A stretch of DNA of 64,000 nucleotides from Paludibacter sp. Its GTDB lineage: Bacteria; Bacteroidota; Bacteroidia; Bacteroidales; Paludibacteraceae. The notes under the pieces were generated by a model, which was given only the letters and a program-made list of their open reading frames with translations, had not been told where the DNA came from and did no database searches. Numbering within the stretch: the stretch's first letter is position 1; every line of letters starts with the position of its first letter. The stretch covers positions 1 to 64,000 of the forward strand of contig JAQTTH010000017.1 in the NCBI GenBank assembly GCA_028710895.1. The letters run 5' to 3'. Positions 37,929 to 63,439 of the stretch are shown here, one piece after another. The position numbers and the translations under genes are program-made.

Positions 37929-38930
37929 ATGGCAATATCAAAATATCCATTTGGAAGATATCAAGTAATTGATCGTGAACTATGCAGAAGAGATTTTGTA
38001 AAAACAAATGAACTGAAAGAAATTATTGAACGTGAATTATCGATTAATGTTTCTAAAAAAATGATTAATGAGGATATTAATGCGATGAGATATGATTCAC
38101 TTCTTGGTTATAATGCGCCCATAGATTATAACCACTCAAAAAAAGCATATTTTTATAAAGACAAAAATTATACTATAAAGGCATTTGGCTTGAAAGAAAG
38201 CGACATAAATGCATTAATGTTCTACGCTAAAGCTATAAACCAATATAAAGATTACGAGGTCTTTGAAGATTTCTCTAATGCTATAGAAAAAGTGTTGGAT
38301 GCAGTTAATATTCGAAAAGGAATTTCAACCAAAGAACAAGCGAGACTTATTGTTCAGACAGAAACTACTCCCAAAGTAACAGGCAGTGAACTAATACCAC
38401 AAATAGTCAAAGCAATAAATTCTAATTCGCTGATTGAAATTGAATATCAAAAGTTTTGCGATAAAGCACCCTTTTGTAAGCAAGTCGCACCTTATTTATT
38501 GAAGGAAGACAGACACAGATGGTATGTCATAGGCAAGACACCATTAAATGACAAAATAAAAACCTATGCTTTGGATAGGATAAAAAGACTAACGATTTTA
38601 GAAACTAAATTTATTCCTACTGAATTTGACTTCAATGAGCATTTTGCATATTCATTTGGAATTACTGTCCCCGATTTAGAACCTTTAGATGTAATTATGT
38701 CGTTTAATGGTTTACAAGGCTACTATCTCAAAACGCTTCCTATTCACCTTACCCAGAAAATACTTATTGATGACGAAAATGAATTTCGTATTTCAGTCAG
38801 GGTAAAGCCATCTTGGGAATTCTATGAAAAAATACTTGGTTATGGAGGTAAAGTTAAAGTGCTCTCTCCTCAAGTTGTTATTGATAATTTAAGGTCAATT
38901 GCCGAAAAGATCTTAAAAAGATATCAATAA
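37929..38930 (+). CDS. WYL-domain transcriptional regulator
   Basis: Regulator of 333 residues. A DNA-binding N-terminal winged helix is followed by a helical linker and a WYL domain at about 160-240 (SLIEIEYQKFCDKAPFCKQV, then RHRWYVIGKT, then YALDRIKRL). A WCX-like C-terminal extension follows. Regulators of this type (BrxR, CapW) commonly repress antiphage operons. It lies 88 bases upstream of the ubiquitin-like gene on the same strand with a hairpin between, so it is the likely controller of that operon. Confidence 0.88.
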   Translation: MAISKYPFGRYQVIDRELCRRDFVKTNELKEIIERELSINVSKKMINEDINAMRYDSLLGYNAPIDYNHSKKAYFYKDKNYTIKAFGLKESDINALMFYAKAINQYKDYEVFEDFSNAIEKVLDAVNIRKGISTKEQARLIVQTETTPKVTGSELIPQIVKAINSNSLIEIEYQKFCDKAPFCKQVAPYLLKEDRHRWYVIGKTPLNDKIKTYALDRIKRLTILETKFIPTEFDFNEHFAYSFGITVPDLEPLDVIMSFNGLQGYYLKTLPIHLTQKILIDDENEFRISVRVKPSWEFYEKILGYGGKVKVLSPQVVIDNLRSIAEKILKRYQ

Positions 38931-38940
38931 TGTTATTTTT

Positions 38941-38969
38941 TTCATCGCGAAGTTCCATTTCGCGATGAA
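38941..38969. terminator. Hairpin between the WYL gene and the ubiquitin-like gene
   Basis: An 11-bp perfect stem TTCATCGCGAA/TTCGCGATGAA with a 7-base loop. A T-run precedes it but only GTATTTTCTTT follows. It could be a terminator of the regulator gene or an operator palindrome for the regulator. Confidence 0.55.
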
Positions 38970-39018
38970 GTATTTTCTTTGCAACATAAATTAATGTCTA
39001 ACTTATAATTTTAAATTT

Positions 39019-39306
39019 ATGAACAAAGATTCTGTAAAAGAAAAAAAGTTGACCATAAAGGTCTTAATTGAAAACGATCTGGTTTTCACAGAAGAGTATA
39101 ACTCAAATCAAAAGATTCTAGTTGTTGTAAACAAAACTTTAGCCCATTTGAAGATTGAAGCCGAAGGTCGTGAGCTACGTCGTGAAGATGGGACTCCTGT
39201 ATCAGATTTTAATCTTACAATTGAAGAAGTTGGAATTGCAAATGGAGAAACGCTTCGATTCTTTAAAAAAAGTGTAAAACCTGATAGAGACAAAGGCTTT
39301 GCATAA
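39019..39306 (+). CDS. Ubiquitin-like protein (DUF2604-like beta-grasp)
   Basis: A 95-residue single beta-grasp protein. It has beta strands KLTIKVLIEND and QKILVVVNKTLAHLKIEAEG, then the segment RELRREDGTPVSDFNLTIEE and ANGETLRFFKKS, as in DUF2604-type ubiquitin-like proteins. The tail is DRDKGFA: a Gly at 93 with two residues after it, so removing FA would expose a C-terminal Gly. Its stop overlaps the ATG of the E2-E1 gene by one base. The family is inferred by eye; the E2-E1 and JAMM neighbours strongly support it. Confidence 0.82.
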   Translation: MNKDSVKEKKLTIKVLIENDLVFTEEYNSNQKILVVVNKTLAHLKIEAEGRELRREDGTPVSDFNLTIEEVGIANGETLRFFKKSVKPDRDKGFA

Positions 39307-40991
39307 TGGAAACACATGAATGGCATAAACATCCATCGTTTAAGAACCTCTTTGAAAGTGAAATTGGCACTTTACAAAGAGGTTTGATGGGTGATTTTAA
39401 ATTATTTCAATTAATAATTCCAGATCAAGCCAGCGGTAGAGTAGTTGCTTTGGGAGAATTGACATTTGGCGAAAAACAAAAACAAAAAGTACAGATAGTT
39501 TTTCCAACTAAATATCCGTTTGCACCACCAGCAGTAATCGCATGTAATTTTATTGTTGACGATACCGGAAAAATACTTAGTCCGATACAACCAACTTTGT
39601 TTGGAAAAGGTAATCAATATACAGATGGTAAAATGTGCCTTTTTGAGCAGAAATTCTGGAAAAAAGAAGAACATAATATTGGTTGGGCATTAAGACGAGC
39701 TCAAAACTGGCTAATCTCAGCACATTCTCCAGAAGGATTTAAAAGAGAAGATATTATTGAAGAATATCCAGCTCATATGGCACATAAAGGGCAGGTACTT
39801 ATTCCTAAAAAAATATTACTCCCTACTAATGTTAAATCTGGGCAATTCTTACTGACACAGTTTAAACCATTCCATTATATATTGGAGTCAAATATTTTAT
39901 CTGAATCAACATTCAAATTGAATATAGGGCAGGAGATATTCAAGTGGTACGTTTTAGAAGAAGGCATTACTCTAAAAATGCTTTTACCAACACTAACAGG
40001 TCAGGATGTAGTAAATTTATATGCGAATTATTTACATGAAAATATTCTTGAAGGAGAATCTATCAAGAATATTGCCTTGTATTTACCAAGTGAAGATAAA
40101 GAATGGCATTTCTTTAAAATTAGAACTCAAACTGAAGGAAACCAAATTACTGTTCATCAACCAATATATTATATCTCAAGGATTATTGAGAATGAGCTGT
40201 ATTTGAGAACAAAAGATATATTTGATGACAAAATATTGCAACGCAAAAGAGTAACTATTATAGGATTAGGAGCTATCGGTAGCGAAGTTGCTAAATCGTT
40301 GGCAAAAAACGGGATTGGCCATTTCAATTTGTTTGATATGGACACATTTGAGATTGGCAACTCCATAAGGCATGCTGCTGATTTGTTTTATATTGGCGAG
40401 CCGAAAACAGATGTCGTAAAACAATTGATTCTCAGATCAAATCCGAATATAACAGTCAATTCATATAGAATCGATGTGTTAAACGACACTGGTTTTTTGG
40501 AAGCTTCATTGAAAGAAAGCGACTTATGTATTGTAATGACTGCTGAAGATTCAGTAGAATATCTTATTAACGATTATTATATAAAGAACTTCAATATACC
40601 ATTTATTTTTGCTAGAGCTTCCCTGGGTGCATTTTCAGGCTCAATACAAGTTGTGGATTCACATAGTGCTTGCCTACGATGTCTCAGTTTAGAAACTGCC
40701 GACTATTTGCCAAAGCCGAAGGAAGATATTAGGCTTAATGAATTGAAGCCAGAATATGGTAGTTGCTCAAGTCCTGCATTACCCGGTTCTGAAATAGATA
40801 CAAAGGAAATTTCATTGCAAGTAGCTCGCATTTCATTACAGTGTTTACTTAAAGGAGAAAAATCTATTTACCCTCAGTTACTAAACAAACAATTTTATTG
40901 GCATGGACCTTATGGCTCTGTAGCTAAAGACCCATTTACTTGGGAAATGCAAAATCTAAAAAAGCACAAAGACTGCAATATATGCAAATAG
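39306..40991 (+). CDS. E2-E1 fusion, ubiquitin-like conjugation enzyme
   Basis: Fusion of 561 residues. The N-terminal E2-like domain (about 1-165) has VFPTKYPFAPPAV and the catalytic Cys in DGKMCLFE (Cys near 111), with W-A-L-R-R-A-Q-N-W after it. The C-terminal E1/ThiF domain (about 305-561) has IIGLGAIGSEVAKSLA (ATP loop), FDMDTFEIGNSIRH with the adenylation Asp, Asn and Arg, and a candidate transfer Cys in GSCSSPALPGSE. It also has two CxxC pairs (ACLRC and DCNIC) that could bind zinc. The order matches Cap2 and related stand-alone systems. It activates the ubiquitin-like protein and transfers it to an unknown target. Confidence 0.9.
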   Translation: METHEWHKHPSFKNLFESEIGTLQRGLMGDFKLFQLIIPDQASGRVVALGELTFGEKQKQKVQIVFPTKYPFAPPAVIACNFIVDDTGKILSPIQPTLFGKGNQYTDGKMCLFEQKFWKKEEHNIGWALRRAQNWLISAHSPEGFKREDIIEEYPAHMAHKGQVLIPKKILLPTNVKSGQFLLTQFKPFHYILESNILSESTFKLNIGQEIFKWYVLEEGITLKMLLPTLTGQDVVNLYANYLHENILEGESIKNIALYLPSEDKEWHFFKIRTQTEGNQITVHQPIYYISRIIENELYLRTKDIFDDKILQRKRVTIIGLGAIGSEVAKSLAKNGIGHFNLFDMDTFEIGNSIRHAADLFYIGEPKTDVVKQLILRSNPNITVNSYRIDVLNDTGFLEASLKESDLCIVMTAEDSVEYLINDYYIKNFNIPFIFARASLGAFSGSIQVVDSHSACLRCLSLETADYLPKPKEDIRLNELKPEYGSCSSPALPGSEIDTKEISLQVARISLQCLLKGEKSIYPQLLNKQFYWHGPYGSVAKDPFTWEMQNLKKHKDCNICK

Positions 40992-41452
40992 AAAAAATAA
41001 TCTTTAGTAGCCAAGCGCTTCATATGTTCCAATCAGAAATTGAGACATATGGAGTTGTTGAGACTGGTGGTGTCATGTTAGGTTATATTTTTGAAGAAAC
41101 AATTTATGTAGAAAAAGTAAGCAATGGAGGTTCTAAAGCAATTCATGAATATCTCTATTTCAGAGCTGATAATAATTACATAGAAATGTTCATTGATATG
41201 GAAGTTGCTAATTCTGGTGGTAAATTGAGATATCTGGGAGAATGGCATACACATCCTCAAATTAATCCTGAACCAAGTGAATTGGATTTAGATTCGTTGG
41301 GAGAAATAGCTGATTCAACTGTTGACTTTTGTATTGGATTAATTTTAGGGGCAGTTGATTATTCCACAGAATGCTTTTGGAAGCAATCAGTATGTATAAT
41401 TAAAAATAAAGATTCAAACAAATTTCAAGTTATACAAATAACAAGAGATTGA
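40982..41452 (+). CDS. JAMM/Mov34 deubiquitinase-like peptidase
   Basis: Metallopeptidase of 156 residues from the ATG at 40982, which overlaps the end of the E2-E1 gene; a longer start at 40940 would only add residues read in the overlap. The JAMM motif is complete: Glu in VVETGGVMLGY, then EWHTHPQINPEPSELD with two His, Ser and Asp. In related systems this enzyme trims the ubiquitin-like tail or removes it from targets. Confidence 0.92.
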   Translation: MQIEKIIFSSQALHMFQSEIETYGVVETGGVMLGYIFEETIYVEKVSNGGSKAIHEYLYFRADNNYIEMFIDMEVANSGGKLRYLGEWHTHPQINPEPSELDLDSLGEIADSTVDFCIGLILGAVDYSTECFWKQSVCIIKNKDSNKFQVIQITRD

Positions 41453-57330: not shown

Positions 57331-57363
57331 AAAAAATAGCTGACCAATCATTTCAGCTATTTT
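57331..57363 (-). terminator. Terminator of the two-RT operon and candidate RNA
   Basis: On the minus strand AAAATAGCTGA, a 9-base loop, then TCAGCTATTTT running into further Ts: an 11-bp perfect stem. It lies 115 bases past the last coding stop, which leaves room for an RNA between them. Confidence 0.85.
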
Positions 57364-57478
57364 CCTTTTCACTAGAAATCCAGTTACGGAGATTGAGAAA
57401 AGCCATTGGCACGCTTGTGTGTGACAAGATAAATTGCTTAATCTTGTAAATATTTGATTGGTGCGTTACCCAATATTC
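57331..57478 (-). ncRNA. Candidate template RNA of the DRT3-like system
   Basis: About 148 non-coding bases downstream of the second RT gene, closed by a strong terminator. On the minus strand it has a hairpin CAAGAT/ATCTTG, then TCACACACAAG with the CACACACA tract at 57416-57423 in the small stem CTTG/CAAG, and later the terminator stem. As I recall it, DRT3 carries an RNA with an ACACAC template for poly(GT) synthesis. This region fits that in content and position, but no alignment was made and the 5' end is unknown. Confidence 0.6.
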
Positions 57479-58210
57479 TTAATATGCTAGTTCATTTGCA
57501 ATTTTAGCTTCTAATTCCTTTGCAAAATTAAAATTATTCCACTTAGTAAACCAATATTTCTGATTTTTTTTGAAATTAAATATGATATTTTGTTCTTTTA
57601 CACTAGTTACACCAAATATTATAAGTACTTCTCTCTTAAATTTAGCATCTAAGTAAGGACAAACAACGATATCAAACAGTAGTAATACATTTTCGGCTTT
57701 ACTACTTCTTTTATCAATCCTTTCCTCAGCTTTAAACAAGTCAATAATTTTTAGTTTAATCGCCTTTTTTATTGGCAAATAAGCTTTATCATTTTTTATG
57801 TAGAAAAGTAATACTGTAACTACAAAATAATTAATATCCGCTTGAAAAATCAATTTATTCTCATCTTTATCTAATTTTAAATTGAAGTATTGTTTTAACT
57901 GCTCTTCTGTCAATCTAAATTGCTCACCCAACTCTGCAAGGGCTATCAACAAATAAAGACTTTCGACTTGAATGTATTTATCTAATTTACGTCTTTCAAA
58001 AGTAAAAACAATCTCATCTGATATTTTTTTAAACACTAATTCTTTTGATTGTTCTGTAAATCTAGCTATTTTTTCGGTACTCCCTTTAAATTGTATTTTT
58101 TGTTTATAAGTAAGTAGAATCTTTGATAATATATGACAAAGTTTTACCGTAAAGGAAACTCTTGGATTGACCGAATAAATGAAAAATACAAAGTCTAGCA
58201 AATCCCACAT
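57479..58210 (-). CDS. C-terminal part of Drt3b (other side of the frameshift)
   Basis: This frame reads MWDLLDFVFFIYSVNPRVSF and onward for 243 residues, helical, ending FAKELEAKIANELAY. It is open upstream of the ATG at 58210 back to about 58363, giving RYETYVDGLEKIRHE and KPFTTEEIQKKI, which continue the reverse transcriptase of the gene before it. I therefore read it as the C-terminal domain of Drt3b and not an independent gene. Joined at the frameshift, the full protein is about 720 residues. AT-rich. Confidence 0.75.
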   Translation of the reverse strand: MWDLLDFVFFIYSVNPRVSFTVKLCHILSKILLTYKQKIQFKGSTEKIARFTEQSKELVFKKISDEIVFTFERRKLDKYIQVESLYLLIALAELGEQFRLTEEQLKQYFNLKLDKDENKLIFQADINYFVVTVLLFYIKNDKAYLPIKKAIKLKIIDLFKAEERIDKRSSKAENVLLLFDIVVCPYLDAKFKREVLIIFGVTSVKEQNIIFNFKKNQKYWFTKWNNFNFAKELEAKIANELAY

Positions 58211-58320
58211 ATATTTATTAAACTGATCTTCTTGCCTGATTTTTTTTTGTATTTCTTCAGTTGTAAAAGGCTTTATATCCGCTAAAAAAGAACTTTCATG
58301 TCTAATTTTTTCTAATCCAT

Positions 58321-59640
58321 CTACATAGGTTTCATATCGACTAATACTTTGTTTGACTTTTTTATATAAAGATATAAAGTAAAATTCATTACATCTTTAT
58401 ATTCAACATTTGATTCTTTAATTATAGTTTTAAATTTCGTAATCAGAGACTTCGAATTACAATTTATTTGAAAATCGCAAATTCTTTCTTTAGAATCCTT
58501 TTTTTCGATTTTCAAAAAGATCTCATTGTCAATTAAATCTGTAATTTTATCTTTAGCGATTGTCAGTTCTGTGATTAAAGGTTTTACATAATGTATTGAC
58601 TTCGACTCACTAATTGACATTTTATATGTTTTCAACAACAGCTCATATTCGGTTAATATATCCTCTTTTACTTTATCATCATTATAGAAAACAAAGTAAT
58701 CATCAACATAACGAAATATCTCATAATCTCGCTTAAATGTTAGTTTGTTTTCTTTACGAGTTTTAAGTCTTTGTTCAACTGTCTTATCAATTTTTTGTAA
58801 TATTATCTCAGCAAACACTCTTGAGAACTCCGGTCCAATAACAATTCCATTTGTTTCACCGTAGTTAGTATTCTGCATAAATTTATCAAATCGATTCCCA
58901 AATTCAGCTGCATTGGAACTACAATACTCTTTTGCATATTCTTTAGAATTTACTGCCCAACCTATTGAGTGCGTATATATACTGTCAAAGCACTTAGAGA
59001 TATCAAATTTAAAAAGTTTATCGTATTTCTTTTCAGCGCGATGGTATCTATAGTCTTCGTAAAACTTATAAATATGGGGATATTGGCTATATGTGAAAAA
59101 TGTTTTTAAGTTTTCATACTCTCTATCGGAGCTTTCAATAGCATCATCTTCATCTCCTAAATTCATTTTATGAAGATTATCATTCTGATATATAAATTTT
59201 GCAATTTTATCAGGCTTCCTAATTGAGAATGAACTTATGTTAGAATAGTATAAAATAAGCTCTTTATAAACATCATAAAACGCGACTAATTCTAATTGAC
59301 TTTTAGGGTGTGGTATAGCCAATTCCCTAAATCTATTCGCTTTATGTGCTATGTTAAAAACGAAAGGAACCCTTCTATGCATTTTGTCATCTATATTTAT
59401 CTTTTTCCCCATTAAAGGTTTGCTTGTGCCAAAGAGCAGTTTTAGTATTATTTCAAATGTATTGTCAGACAAATTGCAGGTTATACTTTGAGTATTACTC
59501 TTATCATTTACGAATTGAATATTAAATTCATTTACAAACTGATAAAAATGACGATTAGAAAACGTCAACGGAATTTCATATGGCAAAGTGTCAGACAATA
59601 ATGCTCTAGCCATAGTATATTTAATTTGTTTCTTTTTCAT
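58321..59640 (-). CDS. drt3b: Reverse transcriptase Drt3b (UG8-like), N-terminal part
   Basis: Second reverse transcriptase of the operon, 439 residues from the ATG at 59640 to a premature TAG. LLSDTLPYEIPLTFSN is near the N-terminus. RT motif A is KFDISKCFDSIY (Asp near 213), motif B region is NGIVIGPEFSRVFAEI, and motif C is FRYVDDYFVFY (about 309-319). The ATG overlaps the stop of the previous gene as ATGA, so translation is coupled. In DRT3 the second RT makes the complementary strand. The stop follows the slippery site by 34 bases. Confidence 0.85.
   Translation of the reverse strand: MKKKQIKYTMARALLSDTLPYEIPLTFSNRHFYQFVNEFNIQFVNDKSNTQSITCNLSDNTFEIILKLLFGTSKPLMGKKINIDDKMHRRVPFVFNIAHKANRFRELAIPHPKSQLELVAFYDVYKELILYYSNISSFSIRKPDKIAKFIYQNDNLHKMNLGDEDDAIESSDREYENLKTFFTYSQYPHIYKFYEDYRYHRAEKKYDKLFKFDISKCFDSIYTHSIGWAVNSKEYAKEYCSSNAAEFGNRFDKFMQNTNYGETNGIVIGPEFSRVFAEIILQKIDKTVEQRLKTRKENKLTFKRDYEIFRYVDDYFVFYNDDKVKEDILTEYELLLKTYKMSISESKSIHYVKPLITELTIAKDKITDLIDNEIFLKIEKKDSKERICDFQINCNSKSLITKFKTIIKESNVEYKDVMNFTLYLYIKKSNKVLVDMKPM
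58357..58363 (-). other. Slippery heptamer A AAA AAG at the Drt3b frame change
   Basis: In the reading frame of the first part the minus strand reads ATA AAA AAG TCA, so the heptamer A AAA AAG is in the phase needed for -1 slippage, the same heptamer as in dnaX. After a -1 shift the frame is AAA GTC AAA CAA and runs through the C-terminal part without a stop. No strong stimulatory hairpin is evident just after it. A simple one-base loss from a seven-A run would look the same. Confidence 0.7.
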
Positions 59641-61133
59641 TGTTTCCAAGCCGATGTGATTTTTTCGAAATTATTGAAAGCTCTCTTTGATTTTTCCGCA
59701 TCCGTCCTTAAATCAGGAATATCTTTGTGTCCCTTTTTACATTTTTTCTTTGGATTTGAATTTGCTTTCATATTAAAAAACAACTTATCATTAAATCCTC
59801 TTACAAAATCAAATCGTTTAAGCCTCGTTTTTAGTGGCTCATCAATAATTATTGCATCAATTCGACTAGCTAAGGTATTATTCAAATCATAAAGACATTG
59901 ACAGTCTTTATCAAGCAAACTATTTGAATAATAAATGCCGATTAAGCCCTTCTTTGGATGCTCTAGTTTGGTATTCTTTGTCAAATAGTTCAATCTGTGA
60001 ATAAGTAATTTATGTGCCTCATTATAGTTCCAAATTTTATCTTTTTTAAATTCGTTTAATGTAGCTTCAATTTTTCTCTTATAACTTTCTTTTCGATTAT
60101 CAGAAAGATTAATTTTGAATTCTTTAAGGGATTTACCTGCCACTGGTGTTTTAGCAACAATAAATTTATACCCTAAAAAGTTTATCGAATGTGTATAAGT
60201 CGTTTCAAAAAGATTACATTCAAATGATTTGTTATATAATGGATTTGGATCTTTTTTTAAAGCCATTCCATAATAATTTACAATCTCCTCAATCTTATTT
60301 AGATAATAGTCTAATGAATCCTTAGAACTAATAGGTTTAAACACAGCAAACATATCGTCAACATATCTGCAATAATATGCAATATCATCAATATCTTTAA
60401 TCTTCTTGTCTATCTCTTTCATATATAATTCAGCAAGAAATGCGCTCACTCCAGCACCTCTTGGAATACCTTTTCGATCACATTTCTTTAATTTATTTTG
60501 CTTGGTAAAGGTGTTATATTGATATATTATATTTTCAATTAGCAATTTTGATTTTGGAGATAATAACTGATTATCATTTATCAAGCTTAACAATTTTTCT
60601 TGAGGTACATTTTCATAAAAACCTTCTATATCTGTTCTTACAACATACTTTGGCAGATTATCTTGTAAAATCGATTTTATCTGTTCGACTATAAGGTAAC
60701 GGTTGGATTGTTTTACATCAAAAGTTCTGTTAATATTGCGTTGGAGTTGCTTCATTGCAAAAAATAAAGGTGCATTATTTTTCTGAATTTTATATTTCAC
60801 CTTTTCATATGGATCAGTCTCATTAATTTTAAATGGTGTTAGTATTATTGAGAAAGTATTGTTATTGACATTACTACTATATTCAATAAGATTGGCATAT
60901 AAAGTAGCCTCTTTTTGCTCAATCAATTTATCCCTATCATCCAATAGTTCTTTATAGCCATCATCGGTTACTTTCCTAATTGGATATGCTTTTATCTCAG
61001 ACCTTATATTTATTAGCTTCTGGGCCAATTCATAGTACTCAATAGAAAAGAACTTTTTATCCAAAGCACCTTTGCGGTTCTCTTCTTCAAAAATTATTTT
61101 GAAATTATCTACAGAAAAAGATTGGTCTAACAT
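59637..61133 (-). CDS. drt3a: Reverse transcriptase Drt3a (UG3-like)
   Basis: First reverse transcriptase of the operon, 498 residues from the ATG at 61133 (MLDQSFSVDNFKIIFEEEN); the frame is open further upstream to 61277 but that stretch crosses the promoter. RT motif A is VVRTDIEGFYENV (Asp near 168), motif B is GIPRGAGVSAFLAELYM (about 222-238), motif C is CRYVDDMFAVF (about 255-265), and NFLGYKFIV follows. The C-terminus is basic and ends near the next ATG. In DRT3 this RT uses the system RNA as template. AT-rich, unlike the flanks. Confidence 0.88.
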   Translation of the reverse strand: MLDQSFSVDNFKIIFEEENRKGALDKKFFSIEYYELAQKLINIRSEIKAYPIRKVTDDGYKELLDDRDKLIEQKEATLYANLIEYSSNVNNNTFSIILTPFKINETDPYEKVKYKIQKNNAPLFFAMKQLQRNINRTFDVKQSNRYLIVEQIKSILQDNLPKYVVRTDIEGFYENVPQEKLLSLINDNQLLSPKSKLLIENIIYQYNTFTKQNKLKKCDRKGIPRGAGVSAFLAELYMKEIDKKIKDIDDIAYYCRYVDDMFAVFKPISSKDSLDYYLNKIEEIVNYYGMALKKDPNPLYNKSFECNLFETTYTHSINFLGYKFIVAKTPVAGKSLKEFKINLSDNRKESYKRKIEATLNEFKKDKIWNYNEAHKLLIHRLNYLTKNTKLEHPKKGLIGIYYSNSLLDKDCQCLYDLNNTLASRIDAIIIDEPLKTRLKRFDFVRGFNDKLFFNMKANSNPKKKCKKGHKDIPDLRTDAEKSKRAFNNFEKITSAWKQ

Positions 61134-61161
61134 AGTATGATATATTTTATTTTTCTCTCTG

Positions 61162-61169
61162 CAAATATA
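61162..61169 (-). promoter_or_regulatory. -7 box TATATTTG for the two-RT operon
   Basis: Minus-strand TAnnTTTG match 29 bases before the drt3a ATG, which supports that start. Confidence 0.6.
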
Positions 61170-61487: not shown

Positions 61488-61973
61488 TTATTTTGCTGCG
61501 GCAGAATCTGCAGAATCTGTACTGCGGCTTTTACTTGGGAATCGTTTTTTCAATTCTTCGTAAATTGCTTTTGCACCCGGAATATTCATTCCTGCAGCTT
61601 GTTGCACACTGCTGTAATAATATAAGGCAGCATAATATGCTTCGCTTCCGGCTACCATCATGGTATCGTCAATAGCATTAAGCAATTGAGTGGCCAAAGA
61701 TGCAGAACCAATCAGGTTTTTAGAATCTGTAATATCAATCTCAAAATCAGAAGCTGTAAGAAATGCCGGAATAAATTCAGGATTTGTTTTGGTGTTTTCA
61801 AATGCTTTGTCAACAAAGCTACTTGATTTATCACCCAACTTCAACATATTCTTCCGGTCTTCCGGAGTCAGCGTTAAAGTATAAGGTTTCAACAACCCAA
61901 TTGCTTCCGCAATTTTCGCATTCACTTGTGTGAGTACTTCCACAGGAATACTTTGATTATGTATGTTATTCAT
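61488..61973 (-). CDS. Hypothetical helical protein
   Basis: A 161-residue protein from the ATG at 61973 (MNNIHNQSIPVEVLTQVNAK). It is mostly helical, with SEAYYAALYYYSSVQQAAG in the second half, and ends in a Ser/Ala/Lys-rich tail (SRSTDSADSAAAK). I do not recognise the family. The reading can be extended to 62249 but that part is translation of a repeat-like element and is not accepted. Confidence 0.65.
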   Translation of the reverse strand: MNNIHNQSIPVEVLTQVNAKIAEAIGLLKPYTLTLTPEDRKNMLKLGDKSSSFVDKAFENTKTNPEFIPAFLTASDFEIDITDSKNLIGSASLATQLLNAIDDTMMVAGSEAYYAALYYYSSVQQAAGMNIPGAKAIYEELKKRFPSKSRSTDSADSAAAK

Positions 61974-62491: not shown

Positions 62492-63439
62492 ATGGCAAAA
62501 ATTGCAAAAAGTCTTACCGAATTAATTGGAAACACTCCACTCGTACAACTCTCGAATTATAGTGCAAACAAAGGCCTTGAAGCCAATGTAATTGCAAAAC
62601 TTGAATCGTTCAACCCTGCTGGTTGCGTAAAAGAACGTATCGCTTTGGCGATGGTTGAAGATGCCGAAGCAGCCGGAATTTTGAAAGCCGGAACTGAAAT
62701 TATTGAACCTACCAGCGGAAATACCGGAATTGGTTTGGCGCTTGTAGCATCTATTAAAGGCTATAAACTGACGCTTACAATGCCCGAAACCATGAGCGTT
62801 GAACGTCGTAACTTATTGAAAGCATTGGGTGCAAACCTTGTATTGACACCGGGTGCTAACGGAATGAAAGGTGCTATTGCACGTGCATTGGAACTTCACG
62901 AAGAAAATCCTAACTCATACATTCCACAACAGTTTGAAAATGCTTCGAATCCCAAAGTACACTATGCAACCACAGGTCCTGAAGTATGGAACGATACCGA
63001 TGGTAAAGTAGATATTTTTGTTGCCGGAGTAGGTACAGGTGGTACTGTAAGCGGTGTTGGTGCTTATTTGAAGGAAAAAAATCCGAACGTAAAAATCGTA
63101 GCTGTAGAGCCTGCCGATTCTCCAGTACTTTCGGGTGGTGCTCCCGGTCCTCATAAAATTCAGGGTATCGGAGCCGGATTTATTCCTAAAAACTACGATG
63201 GTAGTGTAGTGGATGAAGTGCTTCAGGTAAGCAACGATCAGGCTATCCTTACTTCACGTCAGTTGGCACAACAAGAAGGCCTGTTGGTTGGTATCTCTTC
63301 GGGAGCTGCTACCTATGCCGCCACTGTGTTGGCTCAACGTCCTGAAAACAAAGGCAAAAATATCGTAGTGCTTCTTCCTGATACCGGCGAACGTTACTTG
63401 TCAACATTGCTTTACGCATTTGAAGAATATCCATTATAA
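62492..63439 (+). CDS. cysK: Cysteine synthase A
   Basis: PLP enzyme that makes cysteine from O-acetylserine and sulfide. It has 315 residues. Motifs are [11 protein letters not shown], the cofactor Lys in [12 protein letters not shown] (near 47), [27 protein letters not shown] and [14 protein letters not shown]. The following gene is also for sulfur assimilation. A hairpin follows in the spacer. Confidence 0.96.

Follow-up and report, generated by a model that had tools for sequence, protein, structure and literature searches.

Two adjacent reverse transcriptase (RT) genes, flanked on either side by a chromosomal gene of a Paludibacter-type bacterium, had been proposed, in a sequence-only reading, to form DRT type 3 (DRT3), an antiphage system built from a UG3 and a UG8 RT. 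Do these genes belong to that family, and does this copy still encode all of its parts? Within the window, by which we mean the whole 64,000-nucleotide stretch of DNA that was analysed, the locus is very probably a DRT3 antiphage-type locus whose second RT gene, drt3b, carries a recent, lineage-specific break of one base. The locus thus belongs to a known kind, and the working state of this particular copy is doubtful. DRT3 itself has been described before; what is added here to the sequence-only reading is the third component, a noncoding RNA (ncRNA), and the frame break in drt3b. The protein-coding and promoter features are as follows, each with the evidence for it.

61488-61973, minus strand: 161-aa protein, upstream neighbour of drt3a and probably outside DRT3 (homologues)
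61162-61169, minus strand: candidate promoter -7 box of the Bacteroidetes type, TATATTTG, 28 nt 5' of the drt3a ATG (sequence)
59637-61133, minus strand: drt3a, 498 aa, UG3 RT, with YVDD at 60354-60365, residues 257-260 (NF041747, PADLOC)
58321-59640, minus strand: drt3b 5' part, zero frame, 439 aa from the ATG, RT domain, with YVDD at 58699-58710, residues 311-314 (NF041748)
58357-58363, minus strand: A_AAA_AAG heptamer in the zero frame, at the frame break (sequence)
58321-58323, minus strand: zero-frame stop of drt3b (sequence)
57479-58357, minus strand: drt3b 3' part, -1 frame, 292 codons to the stop, alphaRep region and tail, first ATG at 58210 (profile matches)
57482-57484, minus strand: codon of the terminal Tyr of drt3b (sequence, -1 frame)

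Family assignment of the two reverse transcriptases

Profile searches of both proteins bore out the DRT3 proposal. With membership defined by the curated NCBIfam cut-offs (200 bits for Drt3a and 350 bits for Drt3b) and PADLOC models run alongside, the first RT found its best match in Drt3a (PADLOC 2.8e-90; NF041747 4.7e-93, 312.7 bits), and the RT part of the second, taken alone, scored 511.3 bits against the Drt3b profile NF041748 (4.5e-153; PADLOC 3.1e-145). The sequence-only reading had named a joined C-terminal part as support; that part of the second RT does match the rest of the Drt3b profile, at 177 bits, but it lies out of frame. Solved Drt3b chains were matched by the second protein (26cz at 1.5e-69 and 9z6y at 4.9e-57) and the Drt3a chain 9z6y_A by the first (4e-15). 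Together, the curated profiles and the solved homologues are what fixed the identity of both RTs.

That these are RTs of another sort, such as those of group II introns, retrons, diversity-generating elements or a different UG group, is a reading to which we assign almost no weight. Weak cross-matches to group II RT models and to other UG models are what speaks for it, but the group II intron RT model, one of the outcomes that the sequence-only reading had named as refuting, scores far below its cut-off, while Drt3a and Drt3b lead by more than 100 and more than 300 bits, respectively, and are alone in exceeding curated cut-offs. No Rfam intron was found in the window, and an ncRNA of the DRT3 type and the gate residues of Drt3b are both there.

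The layout that had been read from the letters also held up: each RT carries YVDD, the two genes are coupled by an ATGA overlap (59640-59637), a Bacteroidetes-type -7 box precedes them, one terminator-like hairpin with a T-run follows them (about 57361-57331), and the locus is an AT-rich island with a GC content of 28.2% against 38.4% in the rest of the window, where no other 3.8-kb segment falls below 32.5%. The promoter box and about 45 nt around it are kept in the closest relative, the DRT3 locus of Paludibacter sp. LaCa_MAG_3 (JAFLKK010000003.1; locus L003, which is the same as L020 and as part of L104); no clear -33 box was seen upstream of drt3a.

All diagnostic residues are encoded, namely E22, the R71 and R241 equivalents, YVDD twice and the C-terminal Tyr. 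When the numbering of 26cz was mapped onto this protein, the gate residues of Drt3b fell at E22 (E22; 59575-59577), R105 (R71; 59326-59328) and R274 (R241; 58819-58821), and these three positions are invariant in 76 of 76 aligned Drt3b rows. Here the protein ends in the priming Tyr (ANELAY), which is encoded behind the frame break. Among the C-termini of related Drt3b proteins it is last or next to last, and both Paludibacter copies end in an unusual ELAY.

The likeness to the E. coli system (EcoDRT3; PMC13174585; PDB 26cz, 9z6y and 9z6z) thus covers the order drt3a-drt3b-ncRNA, YVDD in both RTs, the E22, R71 and R241 equivalents, the alphaRep region, the C-terminal Tyr and an ACACAC-type template in the downstream ncRNA. 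By contrast, the host here is a member of the Bacteroidota, drt3b lies in two frames, the priming Tyr is last rather than penultimate, and the sequences are distant, as the Drt3a match to 9z6y_A illustrates. Hosts far beyond E. coli therefore share the complete set of DRT3 features, down to the RNA template and the amino-acid residues that act as template.

The downstream noncoding RNA

In EcoDRT3, the template for poly(dTdG) is provided by the ACACAC loop of an ncRNA encoded downstream of drt3b (PMC13174585). Because Rfam had no match in the window, the corresponding RNA was found here by comparison with relatives, which identifies the 148 nt from drt3b to the end of the terminator as a conserved ncRNA.

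57331-57478, minus strand: DRT3 ncRNA, about 148 nt, from just past the stop of drt3b up to the T-run of the terminator, boundaries inferred (conservation with the closest relative)
57408-57470, minus strand: closing helix P1, pairing 57470-57463 (GGU[A]ACGC) with 57414-57408 (GCGUGCC) (covariation in 25 relatives)
57416-57423, minus strand: template segment CACACACA (motif common to relatives)
57343-57462, minus strand: predicted pseudoknot between ACCAATCA (57462-57455) and TGATTGGT (57350-57343) in the terminator loop (pairing in relatives)
57331-57361, minus strand: putative terminator hairpin, AATAGCTGA..TCAGCTATT, with T-run (sequence)

The first 100 nt are 98% identical to those of the closest relative, and identity drops at a sharp edge to about 45-60% past 57329. 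An ACACAC or CACACA motif lies close 3' of drt3b in every relative for which downstream sequence is available. Across 25 relatives, covariation in P1 reached 0.570 against 0.204±0.029 for shuffles, a value attained by 0 of 500 shuffles, and controls with slid arms stayed at or below 0.205; eight of the nine pairs have changed on both sides. Whole-ncRNA alignments made with MAFFT misplace this helix, so its arms were positioned by hand, a choice that inflates the percentage paired. On this comparative evidence, 57331-57478 is assigned as the DRT3 ncRNA with its template, covarying closing helix and predicted terminator.

A further pairing is predicted, in which the stretch that follows the 5' arm binds the loop of the terminator hairpin. 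The match is perfect both in the window and in the closest relative, and with other sequences the pairing reaches p<=0.05 at 27 of 81 loci, which are not independent of one another, where about 4 would be expected. This predicted pseudoknot recurs with different sequences in many clades (L021-L095, downstream of drt3b). The word "pseudoknot" is absent from the main text of PMC13174585, and the published structures that contain RNA may already show the pairing.

By homology to E. coli DRT3 (PMC13174585, PMC13314766), Drt3a would make poly(dTdG) with the ACACAC loop of the ncRNA as its template, and a hexameric Drt3b, primed by its C-terminal Tyr and with E22- and R241-type side chains taking the place of a template, would synthesize poly(dCdA). 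The two strands would anneal to double-stranded DNA, which upon phage inhibition of RecBCD would trigger abortive infection. We infer that an intact system of this type would act in this way in the present host.

The frame break in drt3b

No single frame encodes a full-length Drt3b in which the RT domain is joined to the alphaRep region and the C-terminal priming Tyr. The reading frame of drt3b breaks near 58357, and the remainder is encoded behind the zero-frame stop, in the -1 frame, down to 57479, with an overlap of only about 84 nt between the two frames. The -1-frame piece covers positions 397-596 of 604 in the PADLOC Drt3b profile (7.5e-41) and 406-644 of 647 in NF041748 (6.9e-52), and it is 86.7% identical to the Drt3b of the closest relative. 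That relative has an unbroken drt3b with one extra base at the break (ACATCTTATAAATAAAAAGG, against ATATCTT-TATATAAAAAAG here). The missing base lies somewhere near 58357-58370, and a run of seven A that lost one would explain the sequence equally well. At 75 loci, which come from Bacteroidota, Alphaproteobacteria and other groups, drt3b is full-length and in a single frame (a small number of them are counted twice, since two collections were used), and the exceptions among relatives are scattered lesions at other positions. As both the closest relative and the homologous loci use one frame, the break must be peculiar either to this lineage or to this assembly.

Several observations bear on its age. 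The downstream frame contains no further stop in 280 codons, and at near-invariant columns after the break, across 76 aligned rows, there is no deviation peculiar to this copy; both findings suggest that the lesion is young. The ratio dN/dS against the closest relative is 0.036 before the break and 0.079 after it, compared with 0.114 for Drt3a, in a comparison that spans a deep divergence (dS 0.7-1.0), so that the signal mostly predates the break. Changes specific to one lineage number 6 in the window copy and 13 in the relative before the break, and 13 in each after it (Fisher p 0.24). These data are most simply explained by a lesion of recent date or by an assembly error. We lean towards the former, as a genuine mutation by which the system is crippled; to faulty assembly we give appreciable but clearly smaller credence.

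As predicted from its sequence, the 439-aa zero-frame product would keep the polymerase domain and lose nearly all of the alphaRep oligomerisation domain together with the priming Tyr. In EcoDRT3, changing this Tyr to Phe abolishes both poly(CA) and defence, and mutants of the trimer interface lose defence as well (PMC13174585), from which we infer that the zero-frame product should be inactive.

The position of the A_AAA_AAG heptamer raises another reading, in which programmed -1 ribosomal frameshifting makes Drt3b and sets a fixed ratio of truncated polymerase to full-length, Tyr-primed enzyme. This strong slippery sequence lies in the zero frame (ATA AAA AAG) within the short overlap, exactly where a shift restores the protein, and a -1 shift there yields a 720-aa product that aligns end to end with the Drt3b of the closest relative. 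Past the break, comparison with that relative shows purifying selection, and a clean downstream frame with no measurable decay is also how a functional frameshift would look. However, the two-frame layout is not conserved, all 75 homologous loci, including the one that is 91% identical, being single-frame. No stimulatory structure was found downstream, where folding is weaker than in shuffled sequences (z = +2.19), and 48 neighbouring genes of the window contain the heptamer about as often as chance predicts (5 seen, 4.9 expected), which gives no sign that ribosomes slip strongly at A_AAA_AAG here. Moreover, drt3b holds more zero-frame copies of A_AAA_AAG, so that finding one close to an accidental break means little, and dropping a single A from a longer run would itself create the heptamer. 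We therefore regard programmed frameshifting as unlikely. In the same 48 genes, A_AAA_AAA, unlike A_AAA_AAG, is rarer than expected (5 against 13.5 by synonymous shuffles).

Spontaneous frameshifting during canonical translation is quoted at 1e-4 to 1e-5 (PMC9307594), which also counts against a programmed shift. A small fraction of ribosomes slipping -1 at the heptamer may yield some full-length 720-aa Drt3b. A DRT3 system in which such slippage makes Drt3b, and translation thereby sets the proportion of primer-less polymerase to Tyr-primed enzyme, strikes us as quite improbable. Frameshift control of Drt3b is the only unusual possibility at this locus, and it is not favoured; if the break were read through, it would represent a new control layer in a DRT system, and phage effects on translation could gate a system whose Drt3b is made by slippage.

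The two pieces could instead be made separately, as an RT part of 439 aa and an alphaRep part of 243 aa from the ATG at 58210, and be joined in trans. One presumed transcript holds both, and the second piece has its own ATG, but it would then lack about 49 residues directly after the break. Among the homologues none showed such a clean split, the sole separation at the domain boundary (L092) being due to an insertion sequence, and we consider assembly in trans very improbable. A recent lesion or assembly error in a gene that is otherwise single-frame thus stays the preferred account of the break.

Genomic setting and related loci

On one side of the insert an oxidoreductase gene reaches to 57209, and on the other a cysteine synthase gene begins at 62492. 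In another genome of the genus (G280) the same site is empty, with the flanking genes 339 bp apart rather than 5.3 kb, and in a further genome (G247) a 688-aa open reading frame lies between these two genes. Four of 48 genomes in the genus encode Drt3a, one of them being the source genome, and the closest copy sits at another place. Horizontal gain of the locus fits the empty site, this patchy distribution and the different position of the closest copy. No relatives were found among viral contigs, and the C-terminal part of Drt3b had no match in phage records.

The locus of Paludibacter sp. LaCa_MAG_3 shares 82% identity in Drt3a and 91% in Drt3b, the nearly identical 5' portion of the ncRNA, the same promoter box and a related small gene upstream, and differs in its uninterrupted drt3b and its chromosomal position. 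A genome of the same genus (G257) carries the same drt3b as this metagenome-assembled genome, which marks the host of the present locus as Paludibacter-like. A DRT3 locus on a plasmid of Bacteroides finegoldii (NZ_OY725958.1, L019) likewise has a 4-nt overlap of drt3a and drt3b and CACACAC downstream, whereas its Drt3b is only 38.5% identical, intact and plasmid-borne.

The 161-aa upstream protein was considered as a fourth DRT3 component and rejected, as it adjoins drt3a only in the Paludibacter pair: its homologues lie upstream of drt3a in the Paludibacter relative (L104; 53.5% identity) and otherwise only in L035, and it has three matches in its own genome.

Across relatives, DRT3 copies are interrupted by scattered drt3b lesions, comprising frameshifts and one IS insertion. 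Frameshifts occur in L018 (E. coli plasmid CP083496.1), L087 and L095, near residues 237-246, 380, and 98 plus 227, respectively, and may be lesions or sequence errors. In Prevotella ihumii (L092, 5251-6750), an IS transposase gene splits drt3b at the boundary between RT and alphaRep. In Chryseobacterium mucoviscidosis (L091), there is a gap of about 3 kb between drt3b and the match to drt3a, for which masked sequence is also a possible explanation; an apparent insertion in L089 was rejected, as the stretch proved to be masked (N).

Elsewhere in the window, an AT-rich segment on the plus strand (37929-41452) encodes a WYL-type regulator, a 95-aa protein of ubiquitin-like size with a weak DUF2604 match, an E2-E1 (ThiF) fusion and a JAB peptidase. 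This segment looks like a bacterial ubiquitin-like operon (Bub or CBASS cap2-cap3-like), a second defence-type locus 16 kb away.
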